Source: Ruminococcus flavefaciens (GTDB lineage Bacteria > Bacillota > Clostridia > Oscillospirales > Ruminococcaceae). From it: a stretch of DNA of 64,000 nucleotides. Position numbers and translations under genes: made by a program. Where the stretch lies: assembly GCA_023662725.1 (NCBI GenBank), contig JAMPIL010000004.1, positions 35,736-99,735 on the forward strand, in the 5' to 3' direction. Each line of letters opens with the position of its first letter. Within the stretch, counting starts at the first letter, position 1. Positions 42,002 to 64,000 of the stretch are shown here, piece after piece. The notes beneath the pieces were generated by a model. It did no database searches and was not told the origin of the DNA. It worked only from the letters and a program-made list of their open reading frames with translations.

Positions 42002-42085
42002 AGGAAGTATATAATAATAAATATATATTTTATATTTTCTTTTCTTTTTTAAAAGAGAAGTAAGAAAAGAAAGAATATACTTCCT
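42002..42085. other. Long AT-rich stem-loop between primase and early genes
   Basis: AGGAAGTATAT (42002-42012) pairs with 42075-42085, and polypurine/polypyrimidine tracts inside (AAAAGAAAAGAAA-type) can pair further, giving a nested hairpin of about 84 bases. It lies 18 bases past the primase stop and before the next ribosome site; it could terminate or process the transcript. Confidence 0.5.
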
Positions 42086-42103
42086 CATACCTCCAAATTA
42101 CTT

Positions 42104-44374: not shown

Positions 44375-44386
44375 AATTTTCTCCTT

Positions 44387-44779: not shown

Positions 44780-44853
44780 AATTACCTCCATATTGTCCAT
44801 ATATGGAGGACATGAAGTTGCCCTCCATAGGACGTTATATTATTTGTATCTAT

Positions 44854-45420: not shown

Positions 45421-45422
45421 AA

Positions 45423-47930: not shown

Positions 47931-47942
47931 AAGTCTGCCTCC

Positions 47943-48404
47943 TTACTTGATTTGAATATTCTGACGTTCAACAAGCCTTGCACCGTCAACCGTCTGACCT
48001 GCCTTGATAGCGTTTCTGATTGCCGTCCTGTTGGGAGTGTAGGTAATTTTTTCCCTGCACCACTTCCTGTCAAGGACGTTTTCGTCAATTTCAGTTGATT
48101 CCGATTTTCTGAATGATACGCAAACTCTTGCCGTCTCAAATTTCTGATAGCCGACTGCATCAGCAAGCCATTTTTTGAGTGCTTCAGCCTTATTTACAGC
48201 CGATTTCATACGCTTGTCAAGCGCATCACGTTCCGCCTTGATTGCCGTCACATCTGAATCAAGATTTTTAATCCAGAGTGCCACTTTTTCAATCTTTGTA
48301 TCACGCTCCATAAGCAGTTCATTCAGACGTTCAAGGTCAATAATTTCACCCGTTTCCTCGTCCACACAAGCCGTTATAGATGAATCAATTTCATAGAGTG
48401 TCAT
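47943..48404 (-). CDS. Siphovirus Gp157-family protein
   Basis: 153 residues: long helical coiled coil (RDTKIEKVALWIKNLDSDVTAIKAERDALDKRM, about 33-65), then LADAVGYQKFETARVCVSFRKSES and ITYTPNRTAIRNAIKAGQTVDGARL, the Gp157 pattern. In Streptococcus phages Gp157 is linked to phage resistance; biochemical role unknown. It overlaps the antirepressor by four bases. Confidence 0.85.
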   Translation of the reverse strand: MTLYEIDSSITACVDEETGEIIDLERLNELLMERDTKIEKVALWIKNLDSDVTAIKAERDALDKRMKSAVNKAEALKKWLADAVGYQKFETARVCVSFRKSESTEIDENVLDRKWCREKITYTPNRTAIRNAIKAGQTVDGARLVERQNIQIK

Positions 48405-49168
48405 ACTGATTCCTCCTTTTCGATGGTCGGAAGATGTCCGTCTTTTTTCATAAGTTCATAGATAAACAGGCGACCTTTCTGCGTCCAGTATGTATGCACC
48501 GTTGTGTGCGGCTGACCGTCATTTCCGTTATGAACATAAGTTTTGGTGCTTGTATATCCCAATTGTGCATACTTCTGATACAAAAGCCAGATTTTGCCCT
48601 GCTTGTACTGAACTCCCTTGCTGTAAAGCCACTCATTCATTCTGCGTGCCGACCAGCCGTAATCCTTGCTGATATGCGAAATCGGAAGTAAGTCAGAACA
48701 GGCAAGAACAACATCGTAATAGCTTGCTTTTGGCTTCAATTCCGCAATCTGCTGTGTCTGAACCGCAACGGTGTCAAGAAGTCTGATATTTTCAGATTTT
48801 ACGAGCGAAAGCTGACGTTCTGCAAACTGCAGTGCTCTTGCCATAACCGCTTCGGGGCTGTTCCACCTGCGTTCGAGTTCAAGGAAGTACTCACGGCATT
48901 TCTTGCCGATTTCCGTTCTCTGAATCATACAGATTTCCTTCGCCATTTCGATTGTCATCTGGTGGTCGGTGTATGTTGTAACGTTGCCCTGAGCTGTTGC
49001 TCTTTTTTGAGTAACAGCTACAAAGTCCGAATTTTCGCTGAATCCGTATTCTGTCATTCTCTTGAACCAGTCGTTATAGCGTGTCTGAACATTGAGTACC
49101 TCGTGCAGTTCTCTGCCCATAACCGTCGGGCGTTCGTTTTCATAAGAAACGCTGATTAAATCATTCAT
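48401..49168 (-). CDS. Phage antirepressor (AntA domain plus KilAC)
   Basis: 255 residues. The N-terminal AntA/AntB domain (ELHEVLNVQTRYNDWFKRMTEYGF, MTIEMAKEICMIQRTEIGKKCREYFLELE) is followed by a coiled coil and a KilAC/ANT domain (LLPISHISKDYGWSARRMNEWLYSKG, YTSTKTYVHNG). It would lift lysogenic repression; its target repressor was not found in this prophage. Confidence 0.9.
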   Translation of the reverse strand: MNDLISVSYENERPTVMGRELHEVLNVQTRYNDWFKRMTEYGFSENSDFVAVTQKRATAQGNVTTYTDHQMTIEMAKEICMIQRTEIGKKCREYFLELERRWNSPEAVMARALQFAERQLSLVKSENIRLLDTVAVQTQQIAELKPKASYYDVVLACSDLLPISHISKDYGWSARRMNEWLYSKGVQYKQGKIWLLYQKYAQLGYTSTKTYVHNGNDGQPHTTVHTYWTQKGRLFIYELMKKDGHLPTIEKEESV

Positions 49169-49364
49169 TTTTCATTACCTCCATTGTTTTTGTGTTGTTT
49201 GTGAGTGCCGAAAGCATGGTACACATTGCTGAAAGCTGTATCAGGAGTGAAGCGCCTCTTTTCATAAGCATACCGTACGGCAGCGGAATATCCTGACGTT
49301 CGGCGGTAAGTTTCATAAGATGTGCCACGTCAAGGCATTCACGTTCGGAAACAATTACCTGCAT
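49161..49364 (-). CDS. Small early phage protein
   Basis: 67 residues from ATG 49364 (GGGAGG upstream): MQVIVSERECLDVAHLMKLT ... NNTKTMEVMKNE, one hydrophobic helix near the end. Overlaps the antirepressor start by eight bases. No family recognised. Confidence 0.6.
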   Translation of the reverse strand: MQVIVSERECLDVAHLMKLTAERQDIPLPYGMLMKRGASLLIQLSAMCTMLSALTNNTKTMEVMKNE

Positions 49365-49419
49365 AATTTTCACCTCCCGATGTAAAGAAAGTACAAGCAT
49401 CAAATTGTCTATTCGAGTT

Positions 49420-50028
49420 TTAAATTTCGTCACTTTGCACAATTTTTCTGATTGATTTCAGTGCATTTGCAATAGTGTTTGTTACCGTTGTTCTCTTAAC
49501 CTTAAGAATTTCTGCAATTTCCTCGTGTGTATATCCATACACGAAACTATAAATAATCATTGTACGCTGACGTTCCGTAAGACAGCTGCACAATTCAAGA
49601 AATGAGTCCTCAATTTCCGGTTGATGATTGTCCGCAATACCCTCGATGCCCTCCTCATCATCTTCAGCAAATTCATAATGATGATAAAGATTCCTGGATT
49701 CCTGATTATGTTCCAGACGGCTCTCACCGTACATCATTACAGCTATGTACCATTCAAATTCCAGCATTTCGCTTTCGGAAAATTTTCTGATATTTTTCTT
49801 TCGGGTGGAATCATATGTATACCCTTTGCACTTGCGAACCGGAAAAACAGTAGTGCCGGAAACCGAAGTATAGCAGATAAAGCCATTGGAGTAACAAACG
49901 GCATTTCCGTCCTCGCTGACTGCTACTGGAATTCCAGTGGTTCTGATTTTCCTGACCGAAGGTGCTCTGCCCACTGTTTTTTCAGGAACAAGTCTGAGCA
50001 GTTCTTTTAATGTGATATGCGAATTCAT
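49420..50028 (-). CDS. Sigma-70-like/ArpU-type early regulator
   Basis: 202 residues from ATG 50028. The N-terminal half is a small basic domain (MNSHITLKELLRLVPEKTVGRAPSVRKIRTTG). The C-terminal region-4 helix-turn-helix is LTERQRTMIIYSFVYGYTHEEIAEILKVKRTTVTNTIANALKSIRKI. It heads the long minus-strand early operon and may guide RNA polymerase to phage promoters. The AAAGGA ribosome site lies inside a sequence that can pair with the leader (see 50030-50176), so its translation may be switched. Confidence 0.82.
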   Translation of the reverse strand: MNSHITLKELLRLVPEKTVGRAPSVRKIRTTGIPVAVSEDGNAVCYSNGFICYTSVSGTTVFPVRKCKGYTYDSTRKKNIRKFSESEMLEFEWYIAVMMYGESRLEHNQESRNLYHHYEFAEDDEEGIEGIADNHQPEIEDSFLELCSCLTERQRTMIIYSFVYGYTHEEIAEILKVKRTTVTNTIANALKSIRKIVQSDEI

Positions 50029-50029
50029 A

Positions 50030-50176
50030 TTGTATCCTTTCCGGGCGAGGATACAACAAAAGAGGTCACACGACTGCGCATCGTATGACCTCGCTGCCTG
50101 AAAAAGGGCGCAAAAAGCCAAGGGTACTACAAGTCGTTACATCTGCCTTCCGGCAAATAACTCAATGTTGTATCCT
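50030..50176 (-). promoter_or_regulatory. Structured 5' leader with two mutually exclusive pairings
   Basis: Minus-strand order: GGATACAAC (50175-50167), then a hairpin GAGGTCATACGA/TCGTGTGACCTC (50092-50062, 11 of 12 pairs) followed by TTTTGTT, then GTTGTATCC (50057-50049), then GGATACAA (50037-50030), which follows AAA to make the Shine-Dalgarno AAAGGA two bases before ATG. The middle segment can pair with either flank. Pairing downstream hides the ribosome site; pairing upstream frees it. Confidence 0.6.
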
Positions 50177-50484
50177 AAGCCCTATTACGTAATTCAGGCG
50201 TAAGAATTAAATTTTATTACAGGGATTTATATGAAACTGCTAATCAGTCTCGTAAATGTCCCTCTACTGTTAGTGAAAAAATAAGGAAAAGTTAACTCTT
50301 AAAATGAAAATTCCGTCTTTTTGCACAAAAGCACATACTTCAAGCAAGATGAATTTCATCTGACTGACAACATAAGATATGGAGAAGACCACCCTCTCAC
50401 TAATTAGATATAACGATCTGGTCGTTACGAAAAAGAAATATGTTTCAATTTTGCCTAAAGAAGCAGATTATTTCTCCAAAGCTA

Positions 50485-50513
50485 TTGCTTTTTTGTGAGA
50501 AACGTGGTATAAT
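50485..50513 (+). promoter_or_regulatory. Promoter of the defence operon
   Basis: TTGCTT (50485-50490), spacer 17, TATAAT (50508-50513) with an extended TGG. It lies 120 bases before the first ABC-3C gene and diverges from the early phage operon. The rest of 50177-50634 is AT-rich with no gene. Confidence 0.75.
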
Positions 50514-50634
50514 GAGGAATAAGAATTCAAGTTTCAAGATGTTGTATTTCCTTGGTGTTTTTATCATATATTTTCTTCAATTTCTGTCAATAGCAATTTC
50601 TTTTCTTCAGTTTCTTTTTTGAGAGGGTGTTTTT

Positions 50635-51861
50635 ATGTCAGAATTTATTAATCTTTTCCTATGTGGTGGAGTATTCTGTTTCCTTTTAGATGAGATGAAA
50701 CCTATGCGGAATTCAGCAAGAAAACATCTTGCAGGTAGTTGTGATAAGCATTCGGCTATAGATGTTATGCAGGACTTATTATTTGCAATTAAAGGAACTG
50801 AATCAATAAGTGCTGCAAAAGATATATCTCTATATAAAGAGTGTAAAAGCAAAGGCTCGGTCAATGTACCTTTTAATGAAGCTCCGTTTTGTGATAGTTT
50901 TGATAATGCTGTCCGGAATGACTTTCATAATGTTTTGAAAAGAATCACAGATTTTACTGACAAACGTATTGATTTGGCAAAAAAAGAATGGTTGGTACAA
51001 GTTTTCTTGTATATTATCTTTCATGATGATGAAATTCTTGAAACTGATATTTTTTATATTGGAAATGATGGTACTCCTAAAACTAAAGAGGAAATGCGAA
51101 AAATATCACATTTTTATTTTCAGCCATTTTTAATAGGCGTTCTGCATTATATATTAAAAAACAGACGCGAAGACAACTGCAACGGTATAGGTACACTTGA
51201 TTTTCTGGGAGAAAAAACTGGAAATAAGCGACGTTTTAAATCCACACTTAATATTCAACTTGATAAAAAAATAACAGTTTCAATAATAGAATTTCATTTT
51301 AATAATAAAAATGGCAACTCTATTATTGAGACTGTTATTGATAAATCAACAAAATCTAACAAATCTTCAAATCATAAACTTCGTAAATTACCTACCATAC
51401 CGATTCCAGATGAAATCAGTGAATATGAGCATAGGTATATTGAGGCTATGCTACAGGCATTCGCTCAAAAAATTAATGTTCCCGAATTAACTATTGATGA
51501 ATTAAAAACAAATCCTTTTTATAATAACAAATTTATTAGAGAAAGACGATATTATTTTGAGACAGAAGCACTTCACAGAGGGACAAGAGATATATATGAT
51601 GATACGGAAGATGAATATTTCAATATTTTTCTTTCAGAAATCTATGATTGGATTATTGATACATATGAGGAAATATATCCTACCGGTTATGAACGTCTGA
51701 TGTCCGTTCTGGACAAAGCAATGCAGGCTCGTACTGACAAATTCATTGTTTCACATGAGACGGCATGGATAGGCAATGGAGAACGCAGAGGAGCGTGTCA
51801 TTTCCTCATTAATTTACAAATATTAGATGGATGGGTGAAAAATAGTGCAGAAAATATTTAA
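50635..51861 (+). CDS. ABC-3C system protein with C-terminal docking domain
   Basis: 408 residues, ATG after GAGAGGG. The C-terminal third (about 305-400: RERRYYFETEALHRGTRDIY, then DWIIDTYEEIYPTGYERLMSVLDKA and GACHFLINLQILDGWV) fits the ABC-three-component C-terminal domain that links an effector to the ATPase. The N-terminal part (about 1-290) is unassigned and would be the effector. AT-rich, unlike the phage genes nearby. First gene of a three-gene operon overlapping the next by 17 bases. Confidence is moderate for the system, low for any activity. Confidence 0.65.
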   Translation: MSEFINLFLCGGVFCFLLDEMKPMRNSARKHLAGSCDKHSAIDVMQDLLFAIKGTESISAAKDISLYKECKSKGSVNVPFNEAPFCDSFDNAVRNDFHNVLKRITDFTDKRIDLAKKEWLVQVFLYIIFHDDEILETDIFYIGNDGTPKTKEEMRKISHFYFQPFLIGVLHYILKNRREDNCNGIGTLDFLGEKTGNKRRFKSTLNIQLDKKITVSIIEFHFNNKNGNSIIETVIDKSTKSNKSSNHKLRKLPTIPIPDEISEYEHRYIEAMLQAFAQKINVPELTIDELKTNPFYNNKFIRERRYYFETEALHRGTRDIYDDTEDEYFNIFLSEIYDWIIDTYEEIYPTGYERLMSVLDKAMQARTDKFIVSHETAWIGNGERRGACHFLINLQILDGWVKNSAENI

Positions 51862-52294
51862 CAGTATTTTTGAAAATAAACTCCGACTTATTCTTGTTAT
51901 TTCTGTTTTCAATGATCCACAAAATGCAGATATGCTATATGCAGCTGACTTTTTAGCAGTTTACAGTAAAATTTTTAATTTGTCCGACGATAATTTGAAT
52001 GGTGAAAATCAATACAAATTCAGTGAGTTTGTTTCAAGACGTTCGCTGGTTTATAAAGTTTTGAGAGAAATGGCATTAGACGGTCTTGTAACTCCGATTC
52101 CTACAAAAGCAGGAATTGTTTATCAGATTACTGAAACAGGAAAGAATCTGAGCGAATCACTAAGCAGTGAGTATGCAATACAATATCGTGAAACAGCAAA
52201 AAAAGTAGTAAATGCCATTATCGGAAAATCTGAAATTGAAATCATATCTCAAATTAATGCTGTTTCGGCAAAATCTTTAAAGGAGTCGTTGTAA
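51845..52294 (+). CDS. ABC-3C middle component (wHTH-like)
   Basis: 149 residues; GTG start within the end of the previous gene. A short helical N-terminus, FNSIFENKLRLILVISVFND, and a winged-helix-like middle (RRSLVYKVLREMALDGLVTPIPTKAGIVYQITETGKNL) match the small middle component placed between docking protein and ATPase in ABC-3C loci. It probably bridges the two partners. TAATG overlap with the next gene. Confidence 0.65.
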   Translation: MQKIFNSIFENKLRLILVISVFNDPQNADMLYAADFLAVYSKIFNLSDDNLNGENQYKFSEFVSRRSLVYKVLREMALDGLVTPIPTKAGIVYQITETGKNLSESLSSEYAIQYRETAKKVVNAIIGKSEIEIISQINAVSAKSLKESL

Positions 52295-54147
52295 TGAAAC
52301 GGTTTTATATAACATCAATTACCGCAACAGGTAGTGGTGTACATGATTCAACAATTACCTTTGAAAAGGGTGTGAATATAATCTATGGACCTTCAGACAC
52401 TGGTAAGTCATATATTATGAAATGTATTGATTTTATGTTCTGTTGTGATGGAGCTCCGTTTACAAGAGCGGATACCGGGTATGATGCTATAGCTATATGT
52501 TTTGAAAATGATGACGGAGAAAAAATAACTGTTAAAAGAAAAATAGTTGATGGAACTAAGAATGGTGAGCCTATAGATCGTGGAGATAGCAAAGTATATA
52601 TTGAAACTACTCTTAATAACTATCTGACTAAAGAATATAAAAAAGAAGAATACCAGTCCTTACTTCTTAAGCTGTTTGGAATAGATGAGGAATATAAATT
52701 AATTTCAAACAAAGATTTTAAACAAGCTAATTTAAAATTGCGTTCGTTCTTTCATCTTTTCTTTTTAGATGAAGACCATATTTTTCAGGCGAAGGAAGTG
52801 TTTTTTAATCCCAATTTCCCAAAAACTATATTCGATTTTATGATTTTGCTGTTTTTATTTTCCGGAAAGGATTACAACGAACTTGTGCCGACTGAAAGTA
52901 CAGAAGATAAGAATAAAAAGGCATTGCAGAAAAAAGGCGTTATAAAATATCTTCGTGAAAAAGTCAAAAACTTAACAGAACGACATGAAGAAGCCAGAAA
53001 AAAATTACTTGAACTTGGTGATGTTAATGTTGAAAGCAAGCTGAATGAAATCATAACAGAAATTTTTGAAATCGACCGGGAAATCTCTGAATTAAAAGAA
53101 AAAAGTCATCAATATATGTCAGGTATTCTTTCAGTTAAATCCCGATTACAGGAAGCACGTGTTTTAAGCGGACGATACAAGGCACTTCATACGCAGTATT
53201 TATCAGATATAAAACGTCTTAATTTTATTTCTGATGGAGATAAAAAAGCTGTAAACATCCGAAGGCTTACAAAATGTCCATTTTGTGAAAGCAAAATGCA
53301 CGAACAGCTTGAACATTCTGAATCATTTGCAGAAGCAACTTCCATAGAATTGAAACGTGTGAAATTGCAGTTGCAGGATTTACAAGAAGTTGAAAAAGAT
53401 GTGGCTGATGAAATTGTACAGCTTGAAGCAGAGTTGGAAATACTTTCTGCACAATATGATGAGATACTGAATCATCTAAAAGAACTTAAGCCAAAAGCAG
53501 AAAATCTGAAAATTACAAAAGATAATTATCTTGAAATTATAGCAGTTCAACAGAATGTATATGCGTTTGAAATGTTTTCAAAAGAACTTGATGCCGAAGC
53601 TGCTGCCAGTGAATGCGAAAGTGATGATGGAAATCCTGAATTTTCTGTAAAACTTGCCAAACAGTATATGGAAAAAAACACCTGGCAAAAAATGAGTGAT
53701 ACCTTTGCGGATATTGTAAAAGCTTGTGAATATCCAAATTTTACAACTGGAAACATCAGTATCAACTCGATGGATGCGATTATAAATGGAAAGCATAAAT
53801 CTTCACATGGCAAGGGCTATAGAGCTTTTTTGAATACAATTCTGCTTTTTTCTCTTATGAAATCGCTTGAAGAAAATGGCAGATATGCAATGCACTTTCT
53901 TTTTCTTGACTCACCGATATTGTCTTTAAAAGAGAAAAAAATAGAAATATCAGACAGCGAAAAAATCACTGATGGAATGAAAGAGGCTCTTTTTCGCTAT
54001 CTGATTGAAAACTGCGGTGAAAATCAGATTATTATTATTGAAAATGATATTCCTGAAAATGTTGATTACAGTAAAGCACATTTAATTGAATTTACTAAAG
54101 ATGAAAAGAAAGGAAGATATGGATTTTTGAAAAACTATAAGGCATAA
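52294..54147 (+). CDS. ABC-3C SMC/Rad50-like ATPase (DUF3732 type)
   Basis: 617 residues. Walker A IIYGPSDTGKSYIMKCIDFM at about 30; a long coiled-coil arm (about 215-430) with the zinc-hook-like CPFC near residue 329; Walker B MHFLFLDSPILSL near 545; then ENQIIIIENDIPE. This is the DUF3732 organisation of the ATPase in ABC-3C defence systems. Ribosome site AAAGGAG. It likely senses foreign DNA or replication intermediates; the trigger is unknown. Confidence 0.78.
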   Translation: MKRFYITSITATGSGVHDSTITFEKGVNIIYGPSDTGKSYIMKCIDFMFCCDGAPFTRADTGYDAIAICFENDDGEKITVKRKIVDGTKNGEPIDRGDSKVYIETTLNNYLTKEYKKEEYQSLLLKLFGIDEEYKLISNKDFKQANLKLRSFFHLFFLDEDHIFQAKEVFFNPNFPKTIFDFMILLFLFSGKDYNELVPTESTEDKNKKALQKKGVIKYLREKVKNLTERHEEARKKLLELGDVNVESKLNEIITEIFEIDREISELKEKSHQYMSGILSVKSRLQEARVLSGRYKALHTQYLSDIKRLNFISDGDKKAVNIRRLTKCPFCESKMHEQLEHSESFAEATSIELKRVKLQLQDLQEVEKDVADEIVQLEAELEILSAQYDEILNHLKELKPKAENLKITKDNYLEIIAVQQNVYAFEMFSKELDAEAAASECESDDGNPEFSVKLAKQYMEKNTWQKMSDTFADIVKACEYPNFTTGNISINSMDAIINGKHKSSHGKGYRAFLNTILLFSLMKSLEENGRYAMHFLFLDSPILSLKEKKIEISDSEKITDGMKEALFRYLIENCGENQIIIIENDIPENVDYSKAHLIEFTKDEKKGRYGFLKNYKA

Positions 54148-54173
54148 AAAATTATTTAAGAATCGAGGTAAAT

Positions 54174-55757
54174 ATGAGCAATAAACTTGAACTTACATGG
54201 CATGGCAAGGATCAGGAAATCCGCATTGAACCACGCCTTTTAATAGAAAAGCCGGAGCTTTCCAACGTGGGAAACGCTCCGGATACGGAAAATATGCTGA
54301 TACACGGCGACAATCTGCTTGCCCTGAAAGCTTTGGAGAGCAAGTACACAGGACAAGTAAGGTGTATATATATCGATCCGCCATATAATACTGGTTCAGC
54401 TTTTGAGCATTATGACGATAATCTGGAGCATAGTCAGTGGCTTAATTTAATGCGTCCCAGACTGGAGATTCTGAAAAATCTGCTTGCTGACGACGGCAGT
54501 ATCTGGATTAGCATTGACGACGACGAGGGACATTATTTAAAAGTTCTTTGTGATGAGATTTTTGGAAGAAATAATTTCATAAGTACTGTAATTTGGGAGA
54601 AAAGATATGCTCCTACGAATGATTCAAAATTTCTTTCTGACAGTCATGACTTTATTTTGGTATATGCCAAAAATAAAAATTCATTGTCAATAAATTTGTT
54701 GCCACGTACTGAACAGCAGAACAAATATTATAAATATGATGATAATGACGGAAGAGGAAGATGGCGTTCAGATAATGTGCTTGTAAAATCATTTTCTGAA
54801 AGTGGAGTATTTCCAATTGTAAATCCTAATACAGGTGTTGAATATTATCCTCCGCAGGGAAGTTGTTATAGATTCAGCAAAGAAACTGCTGAAAGGTATT
54901 TAAAAGAGGATAGGTTTTATTTTGGAAAAGACGGAAAAGGTGCACCACAATTAAAAAGATATTTGTCTGAAGTAAAGCAGGGTGTTACAGCTATGACAAT
55001 CTGGAAACGTGATGATGTTTCAGATAATCAGGAGGCAAAAAAAGAGGTTAAAGCCTTTAATTCTGAATCAGTTTTTGCTACCCCAAAACCTGAAAGACTG
55101 ATTGAAAGAGTACTGACACTTGCCACAAACGAGGGTGATTTGGTGCTTGACAGCTTTTTAGGAAGCGGCACAACTGCCGCCGTCGCACACAAAATGGGAC
55201 GAAAATATATCGGTATCGAAATGGGCGAACACGCCTACACGCACTGTAAAAAAAGACTTGACATGGTTATTTCCGGCGAGGACAAGGGCGGAATCTCAAA
55301 ATCTGTGAACTGGACGGGCGGCGGCGGATACCGTTTCTATGAGCTTGCTCCGACACTCATCAACAAGGACGATTTTGACGCATTTATAATAAATCCCGCT
55401 TATAGCCCTGATATGCTTGCGGCGGCTATGGCTCTCCATGAGGGCTTTACATATCAGCCTGATGCGGAGTGCTTCTGGAAACAATCACACGGCAGCGAAA
55501 ATTCGTATCTGTTCGTGACAACACGTCATCTGACAGTCGCATTCCTTGATTCAATTGCCGCAAGTATGGAAGATAACGAGTATCTTGTAATTGCCTGCTG
55601 TTCTTTTGAGAAAGGTCTGGAAAAGTCAAATCCGCATATTGCAATCAAGAAAATACCGCAAATGCTGCTTGAACGCTGTGAATTCGACAAGTCCGACTAC
55701 AGCCTGAATATCATTCATCCGCCTGTTTATGAAGATGAGGAGGACTGCGATGCATAA
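54174..55757 (+). CDS. mod: Type III restriction-modification methyltransferase (Mod)
   Basis: 527 residues. Beta-class N6-adenine methylase: motif IV CIYIDPPYNTGSAF (about 63-76), target-recognition region (about 125-300), motif I VLDSFLGSGTTAAVAHKMGRKYIGIE (about 325). A C-terminal domain of about 140 residues interacts with Res. It methylates the recognition site on one strand. Bases 54540-55080 are noticeably more AT-rich than both ends of the gene. Its stop overlaps the Res start. Confidence 0.92.
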   Translation: MSNKLELTWHGKDQEIRIEPRLLIEKPELSNVGNAPDTENMLIHGDNLLALKALESKYTGQVRCIYIDPPYNTGSAFEHYDDNLEHSQWLNLMRPRLEILKNLLADDGSIWISIDDDEGHYLKVLCDEIFGRNNFISTVIWEKRYAPTNDSKFLSDSHDFILVYAKNKNSLSINLLPRTEQQNKYYKYDDNDGRGRWRSDNVLVKSFSESGVFPIVNPNTGVEYYPPQGSCYRFSKETAERYLKEDRFYFGKDGKGAPQLKRYLSEVKQGVTAMTIWKRDDVSDNQEAKKEVKAFNSESVFATPKPERLIERVLTLATNEGDLVLDSFLGSGTTAAVAHKMGRKYIGIEMGEHAYTHCKKRLDMVISGEDKGGISKSVNWTGGGGYRFYELAPTLINKDDFDAFIINPAYSPDMLAAAMALHEGFTYQPDAECFWKQSHGSENSYLFVTTRHLTVAFLDSIAASMEDNEYLVIACCSFEKGLEKSNPHIAIKKIPQMLLERCEFDKSDYSLNIIHPPVYEDEEDCDA

Positions 55758-58419
55758 CGATTTTCCAATGTACACCCCTGAATATATCAGCGGTGTTATG
55801 TCACTCCGTAAGCCACAGAAAAAATCTCTCGAAATCCTCGATAATATCCTTTGTAACGTTGATTTGAAAAAAGGCATGAATCTCGATTCGGCTCTTGAAA
55901 CCATAAATAAACTTTACCCGATTTGCACAAATTTCGAGCGTGATTTTATGTCACTGACATTCGCTCTTGCTACGGGGGTTGGTAAAACTCGTCTTATGGG
56001 TGCGTTTATTACATATCTGTACACCAAACATAATATCAGAAATTTCTTCGTCGTTGCCTATAACACGACTATTTACGATAAGTTACAGCGTGATTTTGGT
56101 GACCCAAATAATCCGAAGTATGTATTCAGAGGATTGAGTTGTTTTCCAAATCCACCTGAAATTATTACAGGTGACGATTACAGAGGAAAACCGCTGCCAT
56201 CACTTCAAAGCAAAGTCCGCATTTTTATATTTAATATCAGCAAGTTTGATAAAGAAAATGCAAATATGAAAAAGGTCAGCGATTACTATGAAACATCGTT
56301 TTACGGCGATTTATCGGCACTTTCCGACCTTGTTCTGCTTATGGACGAATCACATCACTACCACGGCGAAAAAGGGGAACAGGTACTGAATGAGTTACAC
56401 CCGTTGCTCGGTCTGGAACTTACTGCAACACCGCTGACCAATAAAAAATCCAAAGGCAAGCAGGTACCGTTCAAGAATGTTGTATATGAATATCCGCTGT
56501 CAAAAGCAATTGCAGACGGCTATACGAGAACGCCTTTTCTTGTTACACGACCCGATGCAAGCTTTTTTAATTTCGGTGATGAACAGATAGACAAACTGAT
56601 GCTGCAGGACGGCATTTATTGTCATGAGGATATTAAGGTAACGCTGAAAGTATATGCTGAAAATAACGGACTGCCTGTGATTAAGCCTTTTATGCTTATT
56701 GTCTGCAAGGATACCACCCATGCACAATGGGTTGAGAACTATGTAAAATCCGATGAATTTCGTGGCGGTGCTTATCGCAGTAAAGTAATTATTGTTCATT
56801 CCAAGCAGGGAAAGGCAGAATCGGAAGCAAATACAAAGCTGCTCCTTGAAGTTGAAAGAGCCGATAATCCGATAGAAATCGTTATTCATGTGGATAAGCT
56901 AAAAGAGGGCTGGGATGTAAATAATCTGTATACGATCGTTCCGCTGAGAACGGCGGCATCTAAAATTCTCCGTGAGCAAATGGTCGGTCGTGGACTTCGC
57001 TTGCCATATGGTGAACGTACAGGTGATGATGCAGTTGACAGGGTTATGCTGACAGCCCATGATAAATTTAATGAAATCATCGAGGAAGCACAAAAGGGCG
57101 ATTCTATCTTCAAAGCAGGTAATGTTATCAGGATTGAGGATACACAGCCGGAGCAGATATCGGGAGTGCAGTTATCTTTACCAACAGAACCTGACGAAAT
57201 ACTTGCATCTGCATATGAAGCCACGGGTATCGAGCGTACTGATGAGACAGATAAGACGATTCAGGAAATCCATATTGAAATCCGTCACGGTATTGATGAC
57301 GCTATACAGAAATCGCCCGGTCATATCGTCACAGCATCTGAAAGAAAGCATATAGCACAGGCGGCAGTAAAAAAGGCAGAGGAAAAACGGGATTTCGCCG
57401 CTGTTTACAATGAAGAAAGTACACCTGCCATCGTCCGCAATTGGGCGGAGCAGGAAGCCGAAAAAATTCATATTGCTGCAATAGAAAAATTTATTCCGAT
57501 ACCACGAATCCGTGTAACCGATTTGGGTGCGGAGGAGTATGTGTTTATGCCATTTGAACTTGATTTGACCGTTTTTACACATCAACCGCTTTCAGCGGAA
57601 CTACTCATACAGAATCTTCAGAACCGTGCGGAACAGGAGCGTGTCAAAGCAGGATATATTGATTTTGAGGGCTATAAGCCTAAGAGTGTTATTCTGGCGG
57701 AACTTCGTGAAAAGCCTGAAATCGACTACAACAAATGTGGTGAACTTGTCAGGTCGCTGATTACTGCTGTAATCGAACATTATGAAAACAAGCATGGTAC
57801 AAATGGAATGCAAAGCATTGTGATGATGTACCGAATGGAGATAAGCAATCTTATCTATAAACAGATGATGCAGCATTTTTATTGTGAAAACGGCTTTATT
57901 CAGGAAGAAGTGCTTGATGAAAATACTGTTAACCTTAAACCGCACTGCACACACAAAAGCAAGTGTTATTTGTATGATGACGATTATAAAGGTGATATCC
58001 GTTCCGTACTGTTTACGGGAATCAAGAAAGGTGTATTCAGTGAAATAAAAGTCGACAGCCACGAGGGTGAACTTACATTTGCAAGACTTGTTGAACGTGA
58101 TGAGGCTGTAAAAAACTGGCTTCGACCTGCTCCAAAACAGTTTAATATTACTTATAATCACGGTAAAAGTTATGAACCCGATTTTGTCGTTGAAACCGAA
58201 GATACAATTTATCTTGTTGAAGTAAAAGCTGAAAATGAAATGAATGACCCTGACGTAATTGCAAAAAAGAAGCGTGGTATCCAATACTGTCAAACAGTTA
58301 CTCGCTGGAGCGAAGCAAACAGTCGAAAACCGTGGAAGTATTTGTTTATACCGTCAAAACAGATACTGCCGAATACCACTTTTCAGATGATTGTTAAGCG
58401 ATTTGTTGCAGAGAGTTAA
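55750..58419 (+). CDS. res: Type III restriction endonuclease subunit (Res)
   Basis: 889 residues from ATG 55750 (GGAGG upstream). SF2 helicase: LATGVGKTRLMGAF (about 78), LLMDESHHYHGEKG (about 198), LTATPL, then LREQMVGRGLRLP (motif VI). C-terminal PD-(D/E)XK nuclease YEPDFVVETEDTIYLVEVKAENE (about 808-830) provides cleavage. Together with Mod it restricts unmodified DNA. Complete and apparently functional. Confidence 0.93.
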   Translation: MHNDFPMYTPEYISGVMSLRKPQKKSLEILDNILCNVDLKKGMNLDSALETINKLYPICTNFERDFMSLTFALATGVGKTRLMGAFITYLYTKHNIRNFFVVAYNTTIYDKLQRDFGDPNNPKYVFRGLSCFPNPPEIITGDDYRGKPLPSLQSKVRIFIFNISKFDKENANMKKVSDYYETSFYGDLSALSDLVLLMDESHHYHGEKGEQVLNELHPLLGLELTATPLTNKKSKGKQVPFKNVVYEYPLSKAIADGYTRTPFLVTRPDASFFNFGDEQIDKLMLQDGIYCHEDIKVTLKVYAENNGLPVIKPFMLIVCKDTTHAQWVENYVKSDEFRGGAYRSKVIIVHSKQGKAESEANTKLLLEVERADNPIEIVIHVDKLKEGWDVNNLYTIVPLRTAASKILREQMVGRGLRLPYGERTGDDAVDRVMLTAHDKFNEIIEEAQKGDSIFKAGNVIRIEDTQPEQISGVQLSLPTEPDEILASAYEATGIERTDETDKTIQEIHIEIRHGIDDAIQKSPGHIVTASERKHIAQAAVKKAEEKRDFAAVYNEESTPAIVRNWAEQEAEKIHIAAIEKFIPIPRIRVTDLGAEEYVFMPFELDLTVFTHQPLSAELLIQNLQNRAEQERVKAGYIDFEGYKPKSVILAELREKPEIDYNKCGELVRSLITAVIEHYENKHGTNGMQSIVMMYRMEISNLIYKQMMQHFYCENGFIQEEVLDENTVNLKPHCTHKSKCYLYDDDYKGDIRSVLFTGIKKGVFSEIKVDSHEGELTFARLVERDEAVKNWLRPAPKQFNITYNHGKSYEPDFVVETEDTIYLVEVKAENEMNDPDVIAKKKRGIQYCQTVTRWSEANSRKPWKYLFIPSKQILPNTTFQMIVKRFVAES

Positions 58420-58432
58420 AAAGGAGAGCGTA

Positions 58433-59320
58433 ATGAAAAAGAGTATCACAATGCTATTGATGGATGGTGAACCGTCCGGCAGAATCAAATGCACACTTGG
58501 CAATTGGACAGGTGTAGCGTACAAAATTCCACGCATTATGCTGGACAGCTGCAAAGACCGTGAACATCTCAAACAAAGCGGTGTTTACTTCCTGCTCGGA
58601 AAATCCGATGATACTGGCAAGGGTATAGCGTATATCGGTCAGGCAGGTGCTCGCAAAAACGGTGAGGGTATTCTTTATCGTTTGCTTGAACACAAGCGTA
58701 ATCCGGAAAAAGATTTCTGGAATGAGGCGATTGTATTCACCACACTGGACGATTCTCTCGGTCCTACAGAAATCAGCTATCTTGAAAACAGCTTCTGTAA
58801 AATGGCTGTCAAAGCCGACAGATATTCGATTAAAAACGGAAACGCGCCAACTCCCGGAAATATCAGCGAGGAAAAAGAGTGTGTGATGCAGGAATTTATC
58901 GAAAGGGCAAAAGACATAATCGGAATGCTCGGTCATAATCTCTTTGAGTCCAAAGACCCTCGTGCCGTCAACACTGCTACATCCGTACAAGAAACCATAG
59001 CGTCTTCAGTTCTGTATTTAAACCGTACAATAAAAGATGTCGGTGAAATTCAAGCTACAGGATTGCTGACAACAGAGGGTTTTGTTGTGCTGAAGGGAAG
59101 CCATATATCACCCGTGGAAGATAATACTATTTCTTGTACGCTTAAAGAAAGACGAAAAAATGCTCAGATTGACAGCAACGGAATTTTACTTGCTGATGAA
59201 CTGTTTAACAGTCCGTCATATGCTGCAATGTTTGTTATTGGAAAGAGTGCAAATGGCCTGACAAGCTGGAAAACTGATGAGGGCATTTCGTTAAAGCAAA
59301 TTGAATCAGCTGATGAATAA
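58433..59320 (+). CDS. GIY-YIG nuclease with DUF4357 domain
   Basis: 295 residues from ATG 58433 (AAGGAG upstream). GVYFLLGKSDDTGKGIAYIGQAGARKNGEGILYRLLEHK (about 47-85) is the GIY-YIG core, with Glu in GPTEISYLENSF. The DUF4357 domain is C-terminal (TTEGFVVLKGSHISPVED ... GLTSWKTDEG). This protein is often found as an extra gene of type III RM operons; its contribution is not defined. Confidence 0.88.
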   Translation: MKKSITMLLMDGEPSGRIKCTLGNWTGVAYKIPRIMLDSCKDREHLKQSGVYFLLGKSDDTGKGIAYIGQAGARKNGEGILYRLLEHKRNPEKDFWNEAIVFTTLDDSLGPTEISYLENSFCKMAVKADRYSIKNGNAPTPGNISEEKECVMQEFIERAKDIIGMLGHNLFESKDPRAVNTATSVQETIASSVLYLNRTIKDVGEIQATGLLTTEGFVVLKGSHISPVEDNTISCTLKERRKNAQIDSNGILLADELFNSPSYAAMFVIGKSANGLTSWKTDEGISLKQIESADE

Positions 59321-59324
59321 ACTA

Positions 59325-59365
59325 AAAAACCCGCCAGATAGTAAAATCATCCAGCGGTCTTTTTA
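59325..59365. terminator. Bidirectional terminator after the defence operon
   Basis: ACCCGCCAGAT...ATCCAGCGGTC with T5 on the plus strand and T6 on the minus strand; imperfect stem with a loop of about ten bases. Confidence 0.6.
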
Positions 59366-59369
59366 TAAG

Positions 59370-59409
59370 CAAACGATTATTCAAAATGGGTGCAAATCCA
59401 ATTGATTTA
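59370..59409. repeat. 40-bp direct repeat, left of the Rpn-like gene
   Basis: CAAACGATTAT, AAAATGGGTGCAAA and a GATTT end match 60631-60670 at about 33 of 39 positions. The repeat brackets the PD-(D/E)XK gene; part of it recurs as the 20-mer GGGTGCAAAATCAAACGATT in both phage left arms. Confidence 0.6.
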
Positions 59410-59522
59410 ACAGCTGATTTTTCTTACGGATTACTATGATACTTGCGTGAATTATTTGCTTGAAATTACAAATTGTAGCAATGTTTATCAGAGAAAATAA
59501 CATAAAAGTGCCGTCAAAAAAT

Positions 59523-59549
59523 CGCTCCAACAGGTTATCTGTTGGAGCG
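59523..59549 (-). terminator. Terminator of the Rpn-like gene
   Basis: Perfect 11-bp stem CGCTCCAACAG/CTGTTGGAGCG, loop of five, followed by ATTTTTTG on the minus strand. Confidence 0.88.
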
Positions 59550-59556
59550 TTACGTT

Positions 59557-60498
59557 TTATGTTAAGCCGAGGATTTTTTTCGCCTGTGACTCCTCGATGC
59601 CACTGTCAATCATATTTCTGAGGACTTCCTTCAGTGTTTCAGCTCTACCTTTAGCTTCGCCTTCCGCTCTGCCTTTAGCTTCACCTTCCTGAATCGCATC
59701 ATTCCTCATATCTTCAATCGCTTTACACACATCAATCGACTCCTCTCCATCTTTGATTTCAAGCTGTGAATTTGTAATTGTGTTGATCACCACTGCTGCC
59801 TGTCTCGGAACACTGTGGAAAGCTTCGTCATTATGCAGGGCAGCGTTCAGCAGATTTTTATCTTTTGAAAACTTGATGTACTTCAAAACAGTTCTTAAAT
59901 CAGTACTGAACTTATCCAGTTTCTCCTCCGAGAGCTCCTGCGGTGCAATCAAATTAATCCTGTAATCCGGAGTATATGCAAGAATACGTTCATCCTTAAC
60001 CAGCATCATATCACGAATCGTTCTCGGTGCGTCCCATTCGCTTGCACCGAAATATACAACAAGCGTGATAACCGGCAGAAGTTTATCCGATTTATAAAAT
60101 CCTGACAGATATTCTGCATTTGTATCACCTGTATTATTGGCATTTCTATGCGATTTACCTGCATCAGAGACCTGTTTTGTGTACTGAAGTGCATCATACA
60201 GCATATTTCTGACCGGCATCGCATAATGAATGTCCGTCTGGTTTTCAATTCCGAGAATCAGGTATGCCGCATTCTCGTCCGCCATAGCCGTTGCCATTTT
60301 CAGCACATCACGGAATTTCTGTACTGGCTCAGATTTGTTGTCATCTCCATATGGAAGAACAATTTCCGCTGTATCCAGTTCATGCAGGCTTTCAGGTTTT
60401 ATGACCTGTTCGCCGCCATATATCAGGTAATTGAAGGCATCTGCAAATACTTCCGTATTCTGCATATACTCCTTCGTTACCGTATCTTTTATACCCAC
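59557..60498 (-). CDS. Rpn/PD-(D/E)XK nuclease-family transposase-like protein
   Basis: 313 residues; GTG start at 60498, preceded by AAGGACG at a rather long distance. The Rpn/PDDEXK_2 architecture is seen in ENAAYLILGIENQTDIHYAMPVRNMLYD (about 95-122, the catalytic D..ExQ region) and LLPVITLVVYFGASEWDAPRTI (about 165). The C-terminus carries EGEAKGRAEGEAKGRAE repeats and a helical tail IDSGIEESQAKKILGLT. Such proteins are implicated in recombination or phage defence. Own consensus promoter (60525-60553) and flanking direct repeats suggest an independent cassette. Confidence 0.85.
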   Translation of the reverse strand: MGIKDTVTKEYMQNTEVFADAFNYLIYGGEQVIKPESLHELDTAEIVLPYGDDNKSEPVQKFRDVLKMATAMADENAAYLILGIENQTDIHYAMPVRNMLYDALQYTKQVSDAGKSHRNANNTGDTNAEYLSGFYKSDKLLPVITLVVYFGASEWDAPRTIRDMMLVKDERILAYTPDYRINLIAPQELSEEKLDKFSTDLRTVLKYIKFSKDKNLLNAALHNDEAFHSVPRQAAVVINTITNSQLEIKDGEESIDVCKAIEDMRNDAIQEGEAKGRAEGEAKGRAETLKEVLRNMIDSGIEESQAKKILGLT

Positions 60499-60524
60499 GA
60501 CGCATCACGTCCTTTCATATTTCT

Positions 60525-60553
60525 ATTATAGCACTTTTTTCTGAAAATTGCAA
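60525..60553 (-). promoter_or_regulatory. Promoter of the Rpn-like gene
   Basis: -35 TTGCAA (60553-60548), spacer 17, -10 TATAAT (60530-60525). Confidence 0.8.
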
Positions 60554-60630
60554 GGGATTTCAGAACTTTTTCATCAAAATTTCGGTTTCATCAATTTTAT
60601 GTTGATATCAAGGGTAAGACTGCCTGCTCT

Positions 60631-60670
60631 CAAACGATTATCAAAAATGGGTGCAAAATCAAACGATTTG
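60631..60670. repeat. 40-bp direct repeat, right of the Rpn-like gene
   Basis: Partner of 59370-59409. It includes the exact 20-mer GGGTGCAAAATCAAACGATT at 60649-60668; another CAAACGATT follows at 60680. The 60554-60805 interval has no gene. Confidence 0.6.
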
Positions 60671-60805
60671 CATTGAGAACAAACGATTGCCGAAAATCAC
60701 TTACTAACGGAGCAAGCTATGGAAATTTTCAATCAGTTCAACTTTGACCGCCTGTAGTACTATAATTTCAAAAACCTCGCTAAACAGCGATATTTTCGTG
60801 GTTTT

Positions 60806-60857
60806 ATTGTATCAAAATAGCAAATCTTAGACATAATCGTATCAGCAATGATACAAT
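60806..60857. other. attP-like dyad site at the junction of two prophages
   Basis: ATTGTATCA (60806-60814) and its complement TGATACAAT (60849-60857) are arranged symmetrically around 60831/60832, exactly where the 110-bp phage-end repeat begins. Size (52 bp) and symmetry fit a serine-integrase attP. The left junction at 6408 has only the right arm, next to the tRNA. Confidence 0.65.
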
Positions 60858-60941
60858 GTAAGAAATGCACTCACTTGGTGGGTGCATTTCTTTCGTGCTT
60901 GGGTGCAAAATCAAACGATTACAGTACCCGATGCACCCACT
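60832..60941. repeat. 110-bp direct repeat copy 2 (left end of the second prophage)
   Basis: Matches 6408-6517 at 108 of 110 positions; followed, as there, by a (different) terminator and a recombinase 3' end. Confidence 0.85.
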
Positions 60942-61005: not shown

Positions 61006-62064
61006 TTATATTTTCACTTCCGTCCCGTCCTTGAACAGAAACACCATACTGCCATCACGGAAAACGGTCAACGTTTCAACAAGAGCTGTCCAGATATTCT
61101 CATCAAATGCTTCAAGAATGGAATCGGATTTTTTAAGTACACGCAGAATTTCCTGCATCTTGGCAATTCTGCCTTTGCGTTCGGCAGCAAGCTGTTCTTC
61201 GGCATCAATTTGTGCGACGATTTCCTCGTAACGTGCGTTCAGTTCGCTGTAATTGGAGTCAGTTCCTCCGCTTTCTATATATTCTTTCAGTTGTTTATTG
61301 ATTTCATCAAACTCCGCTTGTAATTCTGAATTGTGTTCATTCTGCAATTTCAGCTGATTTAACACAAACTGGCAATTTCCGATAACCACATCTTTCTGCC
61401 CGAAATATCGGGAAAAAGCATTCAGAAACTTCTGCTGGATTTCGTGTTCGTACAAGTGCAGTGTTGTGCAGAAATGTTCACTTTTGAACTTTGAATTACA
61501 CTGGTAAATCACACGGCGATATTTCGAGTTGGAGTGCCAGACCTTCGCACCGAAATAACTGCCGCAGTCTCCGCAAATCATTTTCGATGCAAAAATACTC
61601 GTACTACTGTACTGTTTACCAACATTTTCACGTTTAAGAAATTCCTCCTGTACCATATCAAATTCCAACGGATCTATAATAGCAGGGTGGCTGTTTTCAA
61701 CGTAATACTGCGGAATTTCGCCTTCGTTAATTTTCTGCTTTTTTGTCAAAAAATCAACTGTAAACTTCTTCTGAAGCAGTGCGTCGCCCTTGTATTTTTC
61801 GTTGGTGAGAATACTTTTTATTGTACGGCTCGCCCATTTTTCCTTGCCTGCCGGAGTTGAAACGCCTTGTGCGGTAAGCTCTGCGGCGATTTTATATGGC
61901 GTAAGTCCTGCGATGAATGTATTGTGGATCGTCACGCCAATAATTTTGCCCTCCATCGAAACAGAGGGCATTGCGATACGATTGGGACTGTGTTTTGTGA
62001 GCAGATACTCATTGACGGTCACACCGCCGAGAGTCGTTGTTTTATCAGGTTTTAAGATTGCCAT
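61006..62064 (-). pseudogene. Amidase N-terminus fused to serine-recombinase C-terminus (deletion product)
   Basis: 352 codons, open throughout. The first 46 or so residues (MAILKPDKTTTLGGVTVNEYLL ... GKIIGVTIHNT) are the start of the phage amidase; residues from FIAGLTPYKIAAELTAQG onward are the C-terminal two thirds of recombinase 1, with an extra 26-residue coiled-coil stretch (IESGGTDSNYSELNARYEEI) that recombinase 1 lacks. The junction lies near 61915-61925. Relative to the intact prophage a segment of about 3.5 kb is missing. Both enzymes lose their active sites, so neither integration nor lysis should work. AGGAGG still precedes the start. Confidence 0.88.
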
Positions 62065-62066
62065 AA

Positions 62067-62523
62067 TCAATTCTCCTCCTTGTTGTTTTCGTTGGTTGTT
62101 TCCTCATCAATTCTGTCGACTTTTGTCTGCAAAACATCGATTGCTTTCTTGATTGTGGGCGGATACGGGATTCCCATAAGCGACGTATTTTCCACGATTG
62201 ACAAGCTCATTCAGACAAAAAATGATGCAGACTGCGTCACGAATGTAGGTCGTTCCAAGCATAATATCCATGCGAAAAGCGACTGCGATAAGCATCAGGG
62301 TACACACCTTTTTTGCAAGCCCGAACCAGCCTGCCTTTGAGGATAATCCGCCGCTTTTTGTGTGCTTGGACTTTTTTATGGCAGCAGTTATGATTCCTGT
62401 GAAAAAGTCAATTGCCATAAAAATCACAAGCGTGACCAATGCGGAGTTCCAGCCGCCAAAAATAGCGGTTATGAAGCCGCCTACCAGTCCTGCGATGGTG
62501 CAAAGGGTTTCTTTCATTTTCAT
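62067..62523 (-). pseudogene. Frameshifted phage holin of the second prophage
   Basis: Closely matches the holin at 11043-11486 through YIRDAVCIIFCLNEL, then a two-base loss near 62200-62207 (gacaagctc here, gacagcagttc in the intact copy) shifts the frame. The C-terminal sequence KVDRIDEETTNENNKEEN continues in another frame to a stop at 62067. The shifted reading would run to 62107. Confidence 0.85.
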
Positions 62524-62643
62524 CATTCCTTTCGTGATTTGGGTATAAAAAGACCGTCTTTGGCGTTTGCCGCGGACGGTTGCTGACATTTTTTTGATCT
62601 GTTGTTTTTTAAAATATCCCGATTTATTGGATACAACAAAAAT

Positions 62644-62737: not shown

Positions 62738-63961
62738 TCAATTATTTATTTGCTTTAAAAGCTCTCTCTTCATAAGGCAAAGATCAAAAACATCAAGCCT
62801 TTCATCTTGGCATAAGTCGCCAGCTTTCCAATCTGCAAGATGAACGTCGGGAACAGCCAGCAGCCACCTCTGCATTGCCACTACATCAGCAATATTAAAC
62901 ATACCATCTGCGTTCACATCTCCGATAACGCTTTCCTGCGACTGTGACATAACCGATGCCATAAGAAAGACCATGGCTGCGTTGCCATACAAAGTGTTTT
63001 CATTCGTTGTATACTCTCCATCACTGTCAATGTAGCATTTTCCATCAAATTTCGAGAGATGTCGGTTGTCATAAATATTGGTACCCTCGGTAAAATATCC
63101 AGCAGGAACATGGTACGGCTCCAACCGTTTGTCACGGGAATAAATGCCGCTGTAGATGTTTTCAACACAATTTTCGCCGTTGCCTGAAACATAACTGAAT
63201 GAGACAGGGTTTGCACCCAGCAGATAATTTGCCGTTCCGGTAATGCACTGTATCACATCATCAGGTATGGTATCTTCTGTTATGGTGCAGCCAAGTACAA
63301 AGGATGTAGCGCTTTGTGCAATTACCTCATTAGAACCCCACCAATATCCCCATGTGGGAACAACTGTACCCCATACATCGGTTTTCATTCTCTCGCTTTT
63401 CCAACGATTGAACTGTTCAAAGGTATCATTGATCTCCTTTGCAGGAGCATCGTTTTCATAAAGATAGTGTACAAAACCCAAGAAGGAATCACTGCTGTGT
63501 CCATAGCCAAGCGAATTGTTTGGCTGGAAGCAATTCAAAACGGACGTATCCTTTGCATGGGCAATCATATACGTTTCATAAGGCGAAGCATTGCCACCGG
63601 ATTCTTTGACAGCCCGATAAATCGCACCTGCTGCCCAGAACATATTGCGATCCAGAGTCTCTTGTGTAAATGTATAGGTACGGTTGGCGGCGTCAATGGA
63701 CATATGCTTTTCATTGCTTGGGTCATTCAGCCAATCCCAGGCTCTTAAAGAAACTTCAAGGCATTCGTCGGCAAAGTCCGCATAAGCAGGCACATTTTTA
63801 TATACAATATATGCATGAGCAAAGACAGCCGCAGCGCTGGCAGTTGCGTCATGGGAACGCAGCTCGCTTTCCGCACCGCCTGTTGAGGATCGTTTCAGCG
63901 TATCCTCAATATATATCGTATCACCAGAATAATTGGCTGCCACATAGAATGGATCGTCTAT
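62738..63961 (-). pseudogene. 5'-truncated dockerin-bearing GH9 cellulase
   Basis: About 408 codons of the C-terminal half of a family 9 hydrolase: DDPFYVAANYSGD, NYLLGANPVSFSYVSGNG and the general-acid region YTTNENTLYGNAAMVFLM. A dockerin follows (GDVNADGMFNIADVV ... KAGDLCQDERLDVFDLCLM), nearly the same as that of the prophage-borne GH9. A stop codon lies six codons before DDPFY, and the catalytic Asp region and signal peptide are absent. The 39 bases beyond (TATAAT-containing) do not read as GH9, so the gene was cut by an insertion or deletion near 63962. A GTG at 63943 could still start a fragment. Confidence 0.85.
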
Positions 63962-64000
63962 AATAAATTAGACAGAAAAGATTAAGCCGTGGTATAATAT

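Follow-up and report, generated by a model that had tools for sequence, protein, structure and literature searches.

What does it mean that the left end of a prophage lying beside a tRNA-Pro gene of Ruminococcus flavefaciens occurs a second time at the far end of the same prophage, where it abuts an inverted repeat? The original prediction for the window (the whole 64,000-nucleotide stretch of DNA analysed here) was a tandem double lysogen, and we consider it very probable that the internal join is an attP site reconstituted between tandem prophages, in the order attL - phage A - attP - remnant B, at the 3' end of tRNA-Pro. The features on which the argument turns are the following.

6334..6409, plus strand: tRNA-Pro (GGG), called by ARAGORN and Rfam RF00005; attL takes its host half from the CCA end of this gene
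6408..6433, plus strand: attL of phage A, with core CATA at 6408-6411 (likely CA, 6408-6409) and P' arm TGATACAAT at 6425-6433
6408..6517, plus strand: left-end repeat, copy A
6408..60831, no strand: prophage A, 54,424 bp, its ends set by attL and the attP-like site
60806..60857, plus strand: very probable reconstituted attP, with P arm 60806-60814, core CATA 60832-60835 (likely CA, 60832-60833) and P' arm 60849-60857
60832..60941, plus strand: left-end repeat, copy B

Two elements with a common left end

The sequence at 6408-6517 recurs, ungapped, at 60832-60941 with 108 of 110 positions identical, as predicted, and the two mismatches (offsets 58 and 92) leave identical runs of 58, 33 and 17 bases. 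The repeat starts at the second C of the CCA encoded in tRNA-Pro (ARAGORN bounds 6334-6409), where an outer attL with its host flank is present. Beyond each copy lie a hairpin and then the 3' end of a large serine recombinase gene on the minus strand, which had also been predicted, and the likeness continues past them: 61300-61929 matches 6797-7426 at 87%, and 61919-62524 matches 10896-11493 at 84%, the two segments overlapping by 11 bp at 61919-61929. Read from B to A, the homology skips from rec1 (A 7426) to the start of the amidase gene (A 10896) and stops near the start of the holin gene. The repeat and this colinear homology into recombinase, amidase and holin genes uphold the view that a complete-looking phage, A, and a decayed relative, B, have their left end in common; the two elements share one orientation and a common end sequence, as tandem prophages do. 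Beside its left end, A carries an integration module.

6584..8044, minus strand: rec1, large serine recombinase 1, with resolvase, recombinase and zinc-ribbon domains (Pfam) and YARVS and SRFAR motifs
8032..9378, minus strand: rec2, large serine recombinase 2 (Pfam), 39% identical to rec1 over 338 aa
9526..9894, minus strand: small HTH/zinc-finger-like protein (Pfam HTH matches), candidate accessory factor

Both recombinases have the resolvase, recombinase and zinc-ribbon domains, with a catalytic serine motif, that mark serine recombinases. Relatives of rec1 were found at 40 loci in a bacterial collection and 20 in a viral collection. In 38 of these 60 loci a separate rec2 match sits immediately upstream of rec1; tblastn detected an HTH-protein relative likewise in 38 of the 60 distinct loci, though not in the same 38, and many of the loci that lack one or the other match are cut by contig or flank ends. 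At the tRNA-Pro of another genome, L213 (4232-8839) is another layered tRNA-Pro site, in which a second recombinase module of greater divergence comes after a truncated rec1 and left end. L233 (PV036433.1, which its record calls a complete phage genome) has at 6388-9893 two convergent recombinase modules across one attP-like site, and may represent a pair of prophages or a single phage that carries both modules.

Further annotated features of prophage A are listed below.

10043-11179, minus strand: amidase (Pfam)
11043-11492, minus strand: holin (Pfam)
16458-18821, minus strand: GH9 cellulase with CBM4_9, CelD_N and a dockerin-like C-terminus (Pfam)
18818-19453, minus strand: TetR-like regulator (Pfam)
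19812-23765, minus strand: tape measure (PHROGs)
26725-27918, minus strand: major capsid (PHROGs)
27919-28722, minus strand: protease (PHROGs)
28664-29926, minus strand: portal (PHROGs)
29942-31555, minus strand: terminase large subunit (PHROGs)
50635-54147, plus strand: Lamassu-like LmuA/LmuC/LmuB (PADLOC, Pfam)
54174-58419, plus strand: type III methylase and restriction enzyme (Pfam)
58391-59320, plus strand: PDC-S14-like gene, closing the PADLOC/Pfam defence block 50635..59320
59557..60498, minus strand: Rpn/YhgA-like gene at the right end of A (NCBIfam match below cut-off)
60648..60668, plus strand: 21-bp TGGGTGCAAAATCAAACGATT at A's right end

With structural, lysis, replication and recombination genes that include terminase, portal, protease, capsid, tape measure, tail, holin and amidase, A appears to be a complete-looking temperate tailed phage. 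Its GH9 and TetR-like cargo sits between the Dit and tape measure genes, an interval of 3581 bp in A compared with 19-2560 bp across the 40 relatives' loci in which both genes are visible. Prophage A bears a cellulosomal-type enzyme (its dockerin match is weak and below the Pfam cut-off), and the part of the open-access literature searched held no paper evidently on a prophage-borne enzyme of this type. No relative of this GH9 was confirmed in viral contigs, and among phage records six had a match, none of them covering 80% of the query. In A's right arm the Lamassu-like, type III restriction-modification and PDC-S14-like genes adjoin one another. A 141-nt direct repeat (31983-32123 and 32444-32584, 91% identical, 461 bp apart) lies upstream of the terminase gene, and a gene of the amidoligase family (PF12224) is found at 33892-34833. 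What can be seen of the second element and its surroundings is much shorter.

61006..62070, minus strand: fused frame of remnant B, amidase N-terminal coding sequence joined in frame to the rec1 recombinase and zinc-ribbon domains
62107..62589, minus strand: holin of remnant B, which over 109 aa shares 89% identity with that of A
62738..63943, minus strand: C-terminal part of a GH9-dockerin gene (Pfam)
63950..64000, plus strand: end of a repeated sequence, present at seven other places in the genome, six of them contig starts

Pfam found no resolvase domain in 61006..62070, and the remnant is without rec2 and without the HTH gene. The rec1 part is 80% identical in amino acid sequence to A's rec1 over 322 columns. 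B is thus no copy of A; it is what a related phage's left end looks like after an internal deletion. The dockerin-coding DNA of the 62738-63943 fragment matches that of A at 77.5% over 169 bp; the fragment may be either phage-B cargo or a neighbouring host gene. The repeated sequence is probably an insertion sequence (a name we give it by surmise), and the contig stops inside it at window position 64000, so that B's far end and attR are unseen.

Attempts to reach the attR of this locus and B's right half from elsewhere in the genome did not find them, the contig ending in a sequence that is repeated at other contig ends. In two genomes with an empty site, G001 and G024, the first gene after tRNA-Pro encodes a UTP-glucose-1-phosphate uridylyltransferase (the G001 protein matches PF01704) and the second is a gene that by eye resembles an ABC exporter; in the present genome the uridylyltransferase gene sits on C8 beside other genes, and synteny yielded no attR. 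The largest protein in the flank of the G003 join (below) has no convincing homologue here, its one match (E 1e-5) involving a repeat-like stretch, and tracing the repeated element to its other places in the genome did not find the far side. The missing N-terminal half of the cut GH9 gene was sought among the 13 GH9 places of the genome, and the other 12 (A's included) were rejected as nearly full-length to the profile.

A host origin of the 110-bp sequence would predict its presence downstream of tRNA-Pro in other strains. We surveyed 35 other genomes of the genus, obtaining the sequence downstream of tRNA-Pro from 26 of them, together with six order-level relatives, and none of the 26 or the six carries it, in keeping with the prediction that it belongs to the phage; G026 has a similar hairpin after its tRNA-Pro without the att sequence. 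When 60 genomes, this one included, were searched with 60780-61300, seven matched (this genome, G003, G014, G020, G026, G028 and G042), the G014, G020, G026, G028 and G042 matches being short, weak stretches. The G003 match spans the P arm and core and that of G020 the core and P' arm. We set aside G042 as a P-arm look-alike in a promoter region without att features, and G014, G026 and G028 as gene, hairpin or recombinase-end similarities. The end copies of A and B are 98% alike and B's copy is 91% identical to that of L082, while the recombinase genes of A differ by ~13% from those of B and by as much from those of L082; these few differences hint that the A and B end copies were later converted toward each other.

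The attP-like join and its counterparts in relatives

The sequence of the join is ATTGTATCA-N17-CA-N15-TGATACAAT, with A's right end to the left of the core and B's left end to its right. As predicted, the 9-bp inverted repeat formed by ATTGTATCA (60806-60814) and TGATACAAT (60849-60857) is perfect and is centred between 60831 and 60832, at the start of the repeat. Counted from the CA common to host and phage the arms lie at N17 and N15, two bases off symmetry, and the crossover is likely to lie ~1 bp to the right of the geometric centre of the inverted repeat. The crossover had been placed among the few bases shared beside the tRNA CCA, and this can be sharpened: it falls inside CATAATCG, and attL at 6408 and the G003 join narrow it to CATA (6408-6411 / 60832-60835), most simply the dinucleotide CA, which we infer to be the exact site of exchange. 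An inverted-repeat attP of ~50 bp with a short core, here bounded to CATA by attL and the G003 join, is of the form expected for a serine recombinase, and a complete or hybrid att site at the internal join is a property of tandem prophages. The AT-rich window contains 53 matches (overlaps counted) to inverted repeats with a 20-50 bp gap, compared with 12.4 expected from 20 first-order Markov sequences, and the chance that one is centred ≤1 bp from the start of the repeat is ~6e-4 at the modelled density and about four times that at the observed density. The raw count alone is not decisive, and the argument for attP therefore rests on conserved junctions; what makes 60806-60857 convincing is that independent junctions repeat its motif with almost unchanged spacing.

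In 14 attL junctions CCA is followed by TGATACAA at N15-17. Their host sides are tRNA-Pro in four, tRNA-Leu in two (L084 and L097; ARAGORN), tRNA-like 3' ends uncalled by ARAGORN in PV036441.1 and L064, and other host flanks in six (L066, L067, L086, L087, L088 and L091); they amount to about five independent lineages, since the six loci with other host flanks have near-identical phage ends and L064 and L084 are alike. The junctions were first chosen from loci showing TTGTATCA/TGATACAA, and all 17 such loci, of 43, were then examined. Of these 17, which have the 8-mer after rec1, eleven agree with the CCA pattern, L107 agrees with CA alone (at N16, without CCA) and five do not fit (L096, L101, L104, L108 and L112), so that the 14 junctions consist of the 11 CCA-fitting loci plus L110, PV036441.1 and the window. 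The remaining 26 of the 43 rec1 loci are without the 8-mer, and the recombinases at these and the misfitting loci probably use other arms or sit away from their att site. AACGAT occurs 36 times after rec1 over the 43 loci, compared with 7.8 expected, an excess inflated by the near-identical ends of L066, L067, L086, L087, L088 and L091. The tRNA-Pro attL of the window recurs in L082 (whose rec1 is 87% identical), L083 and L110; L110 retains just the last ~27 bases of the tRNA-Pro gene at attL, which hints that the host site needs little beyond those bases.

The other side of the exchange is visible in G003:C250, where an attR-like join, ATTGTATCAAAATAGCAAATCTTAGACATA, is identical to 60806-60835 (30 bases) and then passes into different sequence. 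Beyond this P arm are two WXG100-like genes (one above the Pfam cut-off) and an Ig-domain protein, without a phage left end, and the contig keeps ~50 bases ahead of the P arm. Because the same P arm in G003 runs straight into non-phage sequence, we regard the P arm as a terminus. P arms lie at N17 in the window, G003, G067:C61 and PV036433.1; the last two are further attP-like sites, each a symmetric N17-CA-N17, and CA is the dinucleotide common to the junctions and the attP-like sites. In G067:C61 (L212) the full palindrome, with a CATAATCG core, occupies 1419-1472 between host-type genes and a PDDEXK_9 fragment; blastn of this 12.5-kb contig against the window gave no longer match, and the palindrome is maybe a scar. 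G020 has a P'-like arm of the form CATAATCG, N15, TGATACAAT, with TGTCA instead of CCA on the host side. At that locus (L024, G020:C104), the arm, the CATAATCG core and a nearby copy of CAAACGATAG lie at ~1501-1600, no tRNA, CCA or recombinase was present within the 3 kb fetched, and the arm is perhaps a relic of another integration. CCA is thus the main target, though other targets exist. Two exact attP patterns had no match in viral contigs, and ~60 kb read on the phage side of the attL of An173, a distant relative, contained no matching right arm.

Repeats flank these att sites. The only other exact copies of TGGGTGCAAAATCAAACGATT in the window are at 6476-6496 and 60900-60920, so that it stands at both ends of A and at B's left end and nowhere else in the window, and A's Rpn/YhgA-like gene is flanked by 39-nt repeats (59370-59408 and 60631-60669) that are 85% alike. 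CAAACGATT occurs seven times in the window, compared with ~1.6 expected, and six of the seven lie at A's two ends or at B's left end; several are mutual copies, and we picked the motif only after noticing them. Related motifs (AAACGATAGC and similar) recur beside the att site in one group of relatives, and in An173 a motif cluster is present at the attL side only, which speaks against two-sided arms there. Genes flanked by such repeats include the Rpn-like gene in A and a GH26-CBM35-dockerin gene in L110; the latter (868-2541, minus strand) lies between attL and rec1 within a direct left-end repeat of ~70 bp, and over 56 aa its dockerin shares 79% identity with the one in the GH9 fragment at 62738. 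The repeats may be binding sites for accessory proteins or mere boundaries of exchanged modules. A composite integration system that departs from the customary lone serine integrase, in which two large serine recombinases and the HTH/zinc-finger protein would act on an attP core flanked on both sides by iterated CAAACGATT-type arm-type accessory sites, with the tRNA CCA as main target and old left ends as landing pads at which prophages and their cargo (cellulosomal-type enzymes, defence genes) pile up at the tRNA, is a speculative scheme that we think rather unlikely.

History of the locus and other explanations

In the history that we propose, A and B would be related temperate phages lying head to tail at the tRNA-Pro 3' end, from a lineage whose left end is accompanied by a module of three integration genes (HTH protein, rec2, rec1). 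The recombinase would exchange attP (P arm - CA - P' arm) with a host CA, mostly that of a tRNA CCA end, and leave the tRNA intact in attL. With one phage resident, the other would enter the same site through integrase acting on the resident attL or attR, or through homologous recombination of the ends, and by whichever route A's right end (P arm) and B's left end (CA, P' arm) would rebuild a full attP; three routes (A attP × B attL, B attP × A attR, or homologous recombination between ends) could produce the same order, so that the phage-phage recombination originally proposed is one possibility among them. Since B is decayed, A is more likely to be the newcomer than B, and it presumably still excises; simple excision of A would need attL × attP recombination, attP (not attR) being on its right. 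B lost its recombination genes by internal deletion at the 11-bp shared sequence, and the repeated element cuts its GH9-dockerin neighbour.

The same arrangement could in principle be a single element, B being a duplicated left-end/recombinase module in A's own right end with the true right end beyond the contig. Relatives do have extra pieces of this sort, since L110 has two copies of the left-end segment around its GH26-dockerin gene, L213 a full second module after a truncated rec1, and PV036433.1 its two convergent modules at one attP-like site. A duplication, however, would not place a P-CA-P' site at the join and leaves unexplained the ~13% divergence over colinear genes, and in G003 the same P arm stands directly against non-phage sequence as a terminus; we judge this reading very unlikely. 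Highly unlikely, in our estimation, is an assembly artefact in which an excised circular A, with a true attP, was merged at the shared repeat with a chromosome that carries only B. The genome is a draft of 70 contigs and the exact 58-base run could confuse short k-mer assembly, but such a merge must have swapped copies within that run and kept the A- and B-specific bases with their own downstream genes, and the P-CA-P' site and the phage would be real even so.

That the inverted repeat is a transcription terminator or a chance palindrome, and the long repeat two unrelated insertions that share a terminator, would fit the excess of inverted repeats in the window noted above, the hairpin just to the right of the join, the similar hairpin after tRNA-Pro in the G026 host and the short similarity to promoter-region sequence in G042. 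Against this, diverged phages show the arms again in their junctions, at an almost constant spacing from CCA, and the homology runs on into the recombinase, amidase and holin genes, and we consider it extremely unlikely. A reconstituted attP between tandem prophages remains our reading of the join.

Relation to known systems

Lambda-type tandem dilysogens have the order attL - phage - attP - phage - attR, as here; unlike here, they involve a tyrosine integrase and identical or near-identical partners. The closest precedents, as described in the parts of the sources consulted, are the following. In Mycobacterium abscessus T36, T38 and T48 a pair of distinct prophages occupies a single site in tandem, a tRNA-Thr standing at attL and a hybrid att separating the two, and both integrase action on attL/attR and homologous recombination are considered by the authors as alternative origins (PMC9934374). 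Virions of single members of those tandems were detected (PMC9934374); both members occur as virions there and immunity is integration-dependent, whereas here one member is a remnant and the recombinases are paired large serine recombinases. Accretion with decayed CIMEs resembles the present case in that a decayed element that keeps its att site is joined in tandem by a newcomer of the same specificity, and differs in that conjugative or mobilizable elements are involved rather than a tailed phage (PMC5704250). Both a hybrid att between tandem prophages and the accretion of a newcomer onto a decayed element are already described (PMC9934374, PMC5704250); what is less usual here is the use of paired large serine recombinases with an HTH protein, mostly at tRNA CCA ends, and the repeats that flank the att sites.

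Phi1207.3 of Streptococcus pyogenes likewise has a serine recombinase pair beside the lysis cassette at one end; it differs in a third recombinase in its left arm, and the text examined gives no tRNA site (PMC4260502). Javan113 (Streptococcus phage, MK448670.1) also has a recombinase pair with a zinc-finger gene before it, and its match to rec1 is 61% identical over 82% of the query. Streptococcal ICEs are described, in the text available, as using serine recombinase triplets to enter protein genes (PMC4701971). Of 23 tyrosine-integrase sites in M. abscessus, 16 overlap a tRNA or tmRNA gene, and the text examined names no serine-integrase site in a tRNA gene; the same source states that serine-integrase att sites are hard to predict, the shared core being very short (PMC10654092).

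The phage records closest to A are gut phages. Its rec1 is 59% identical to that of PV036433.1 and 58% to that of PV036441.1, both assigned by their records to Ca. Heliusvirales, and PV036441.1 has the same attL architecture as here. Terminase, portal, Clp-type protease and capsid are all present in A; of these four the capsid alone was compared with records, and it is 77.5% identical to that of PV036450.1. In the parts consulted, the Candidatus Heliusviridae / Ca. Heliusvirales gut phages differ from A in cargo and host (PMC9226167), and a term search of the main Ca. Heliusviridae paper found the words integrase and recombinase absent from the text searched (PMC9226167).

A tandem lysogen displays one phage's attL and attP in a single sequence, and together with its relatives this one fixes the P arm, core and P' arm for a lineage of gut phages. 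An integration tool for Ruminococcus and its relatives could be developed from the system, and the stacking of prophages at one tRNA offers cellulose-degrading and defence genes a way to pass from strain to strain. The double insertion exposes the attachment rules of a little-studied virus group.
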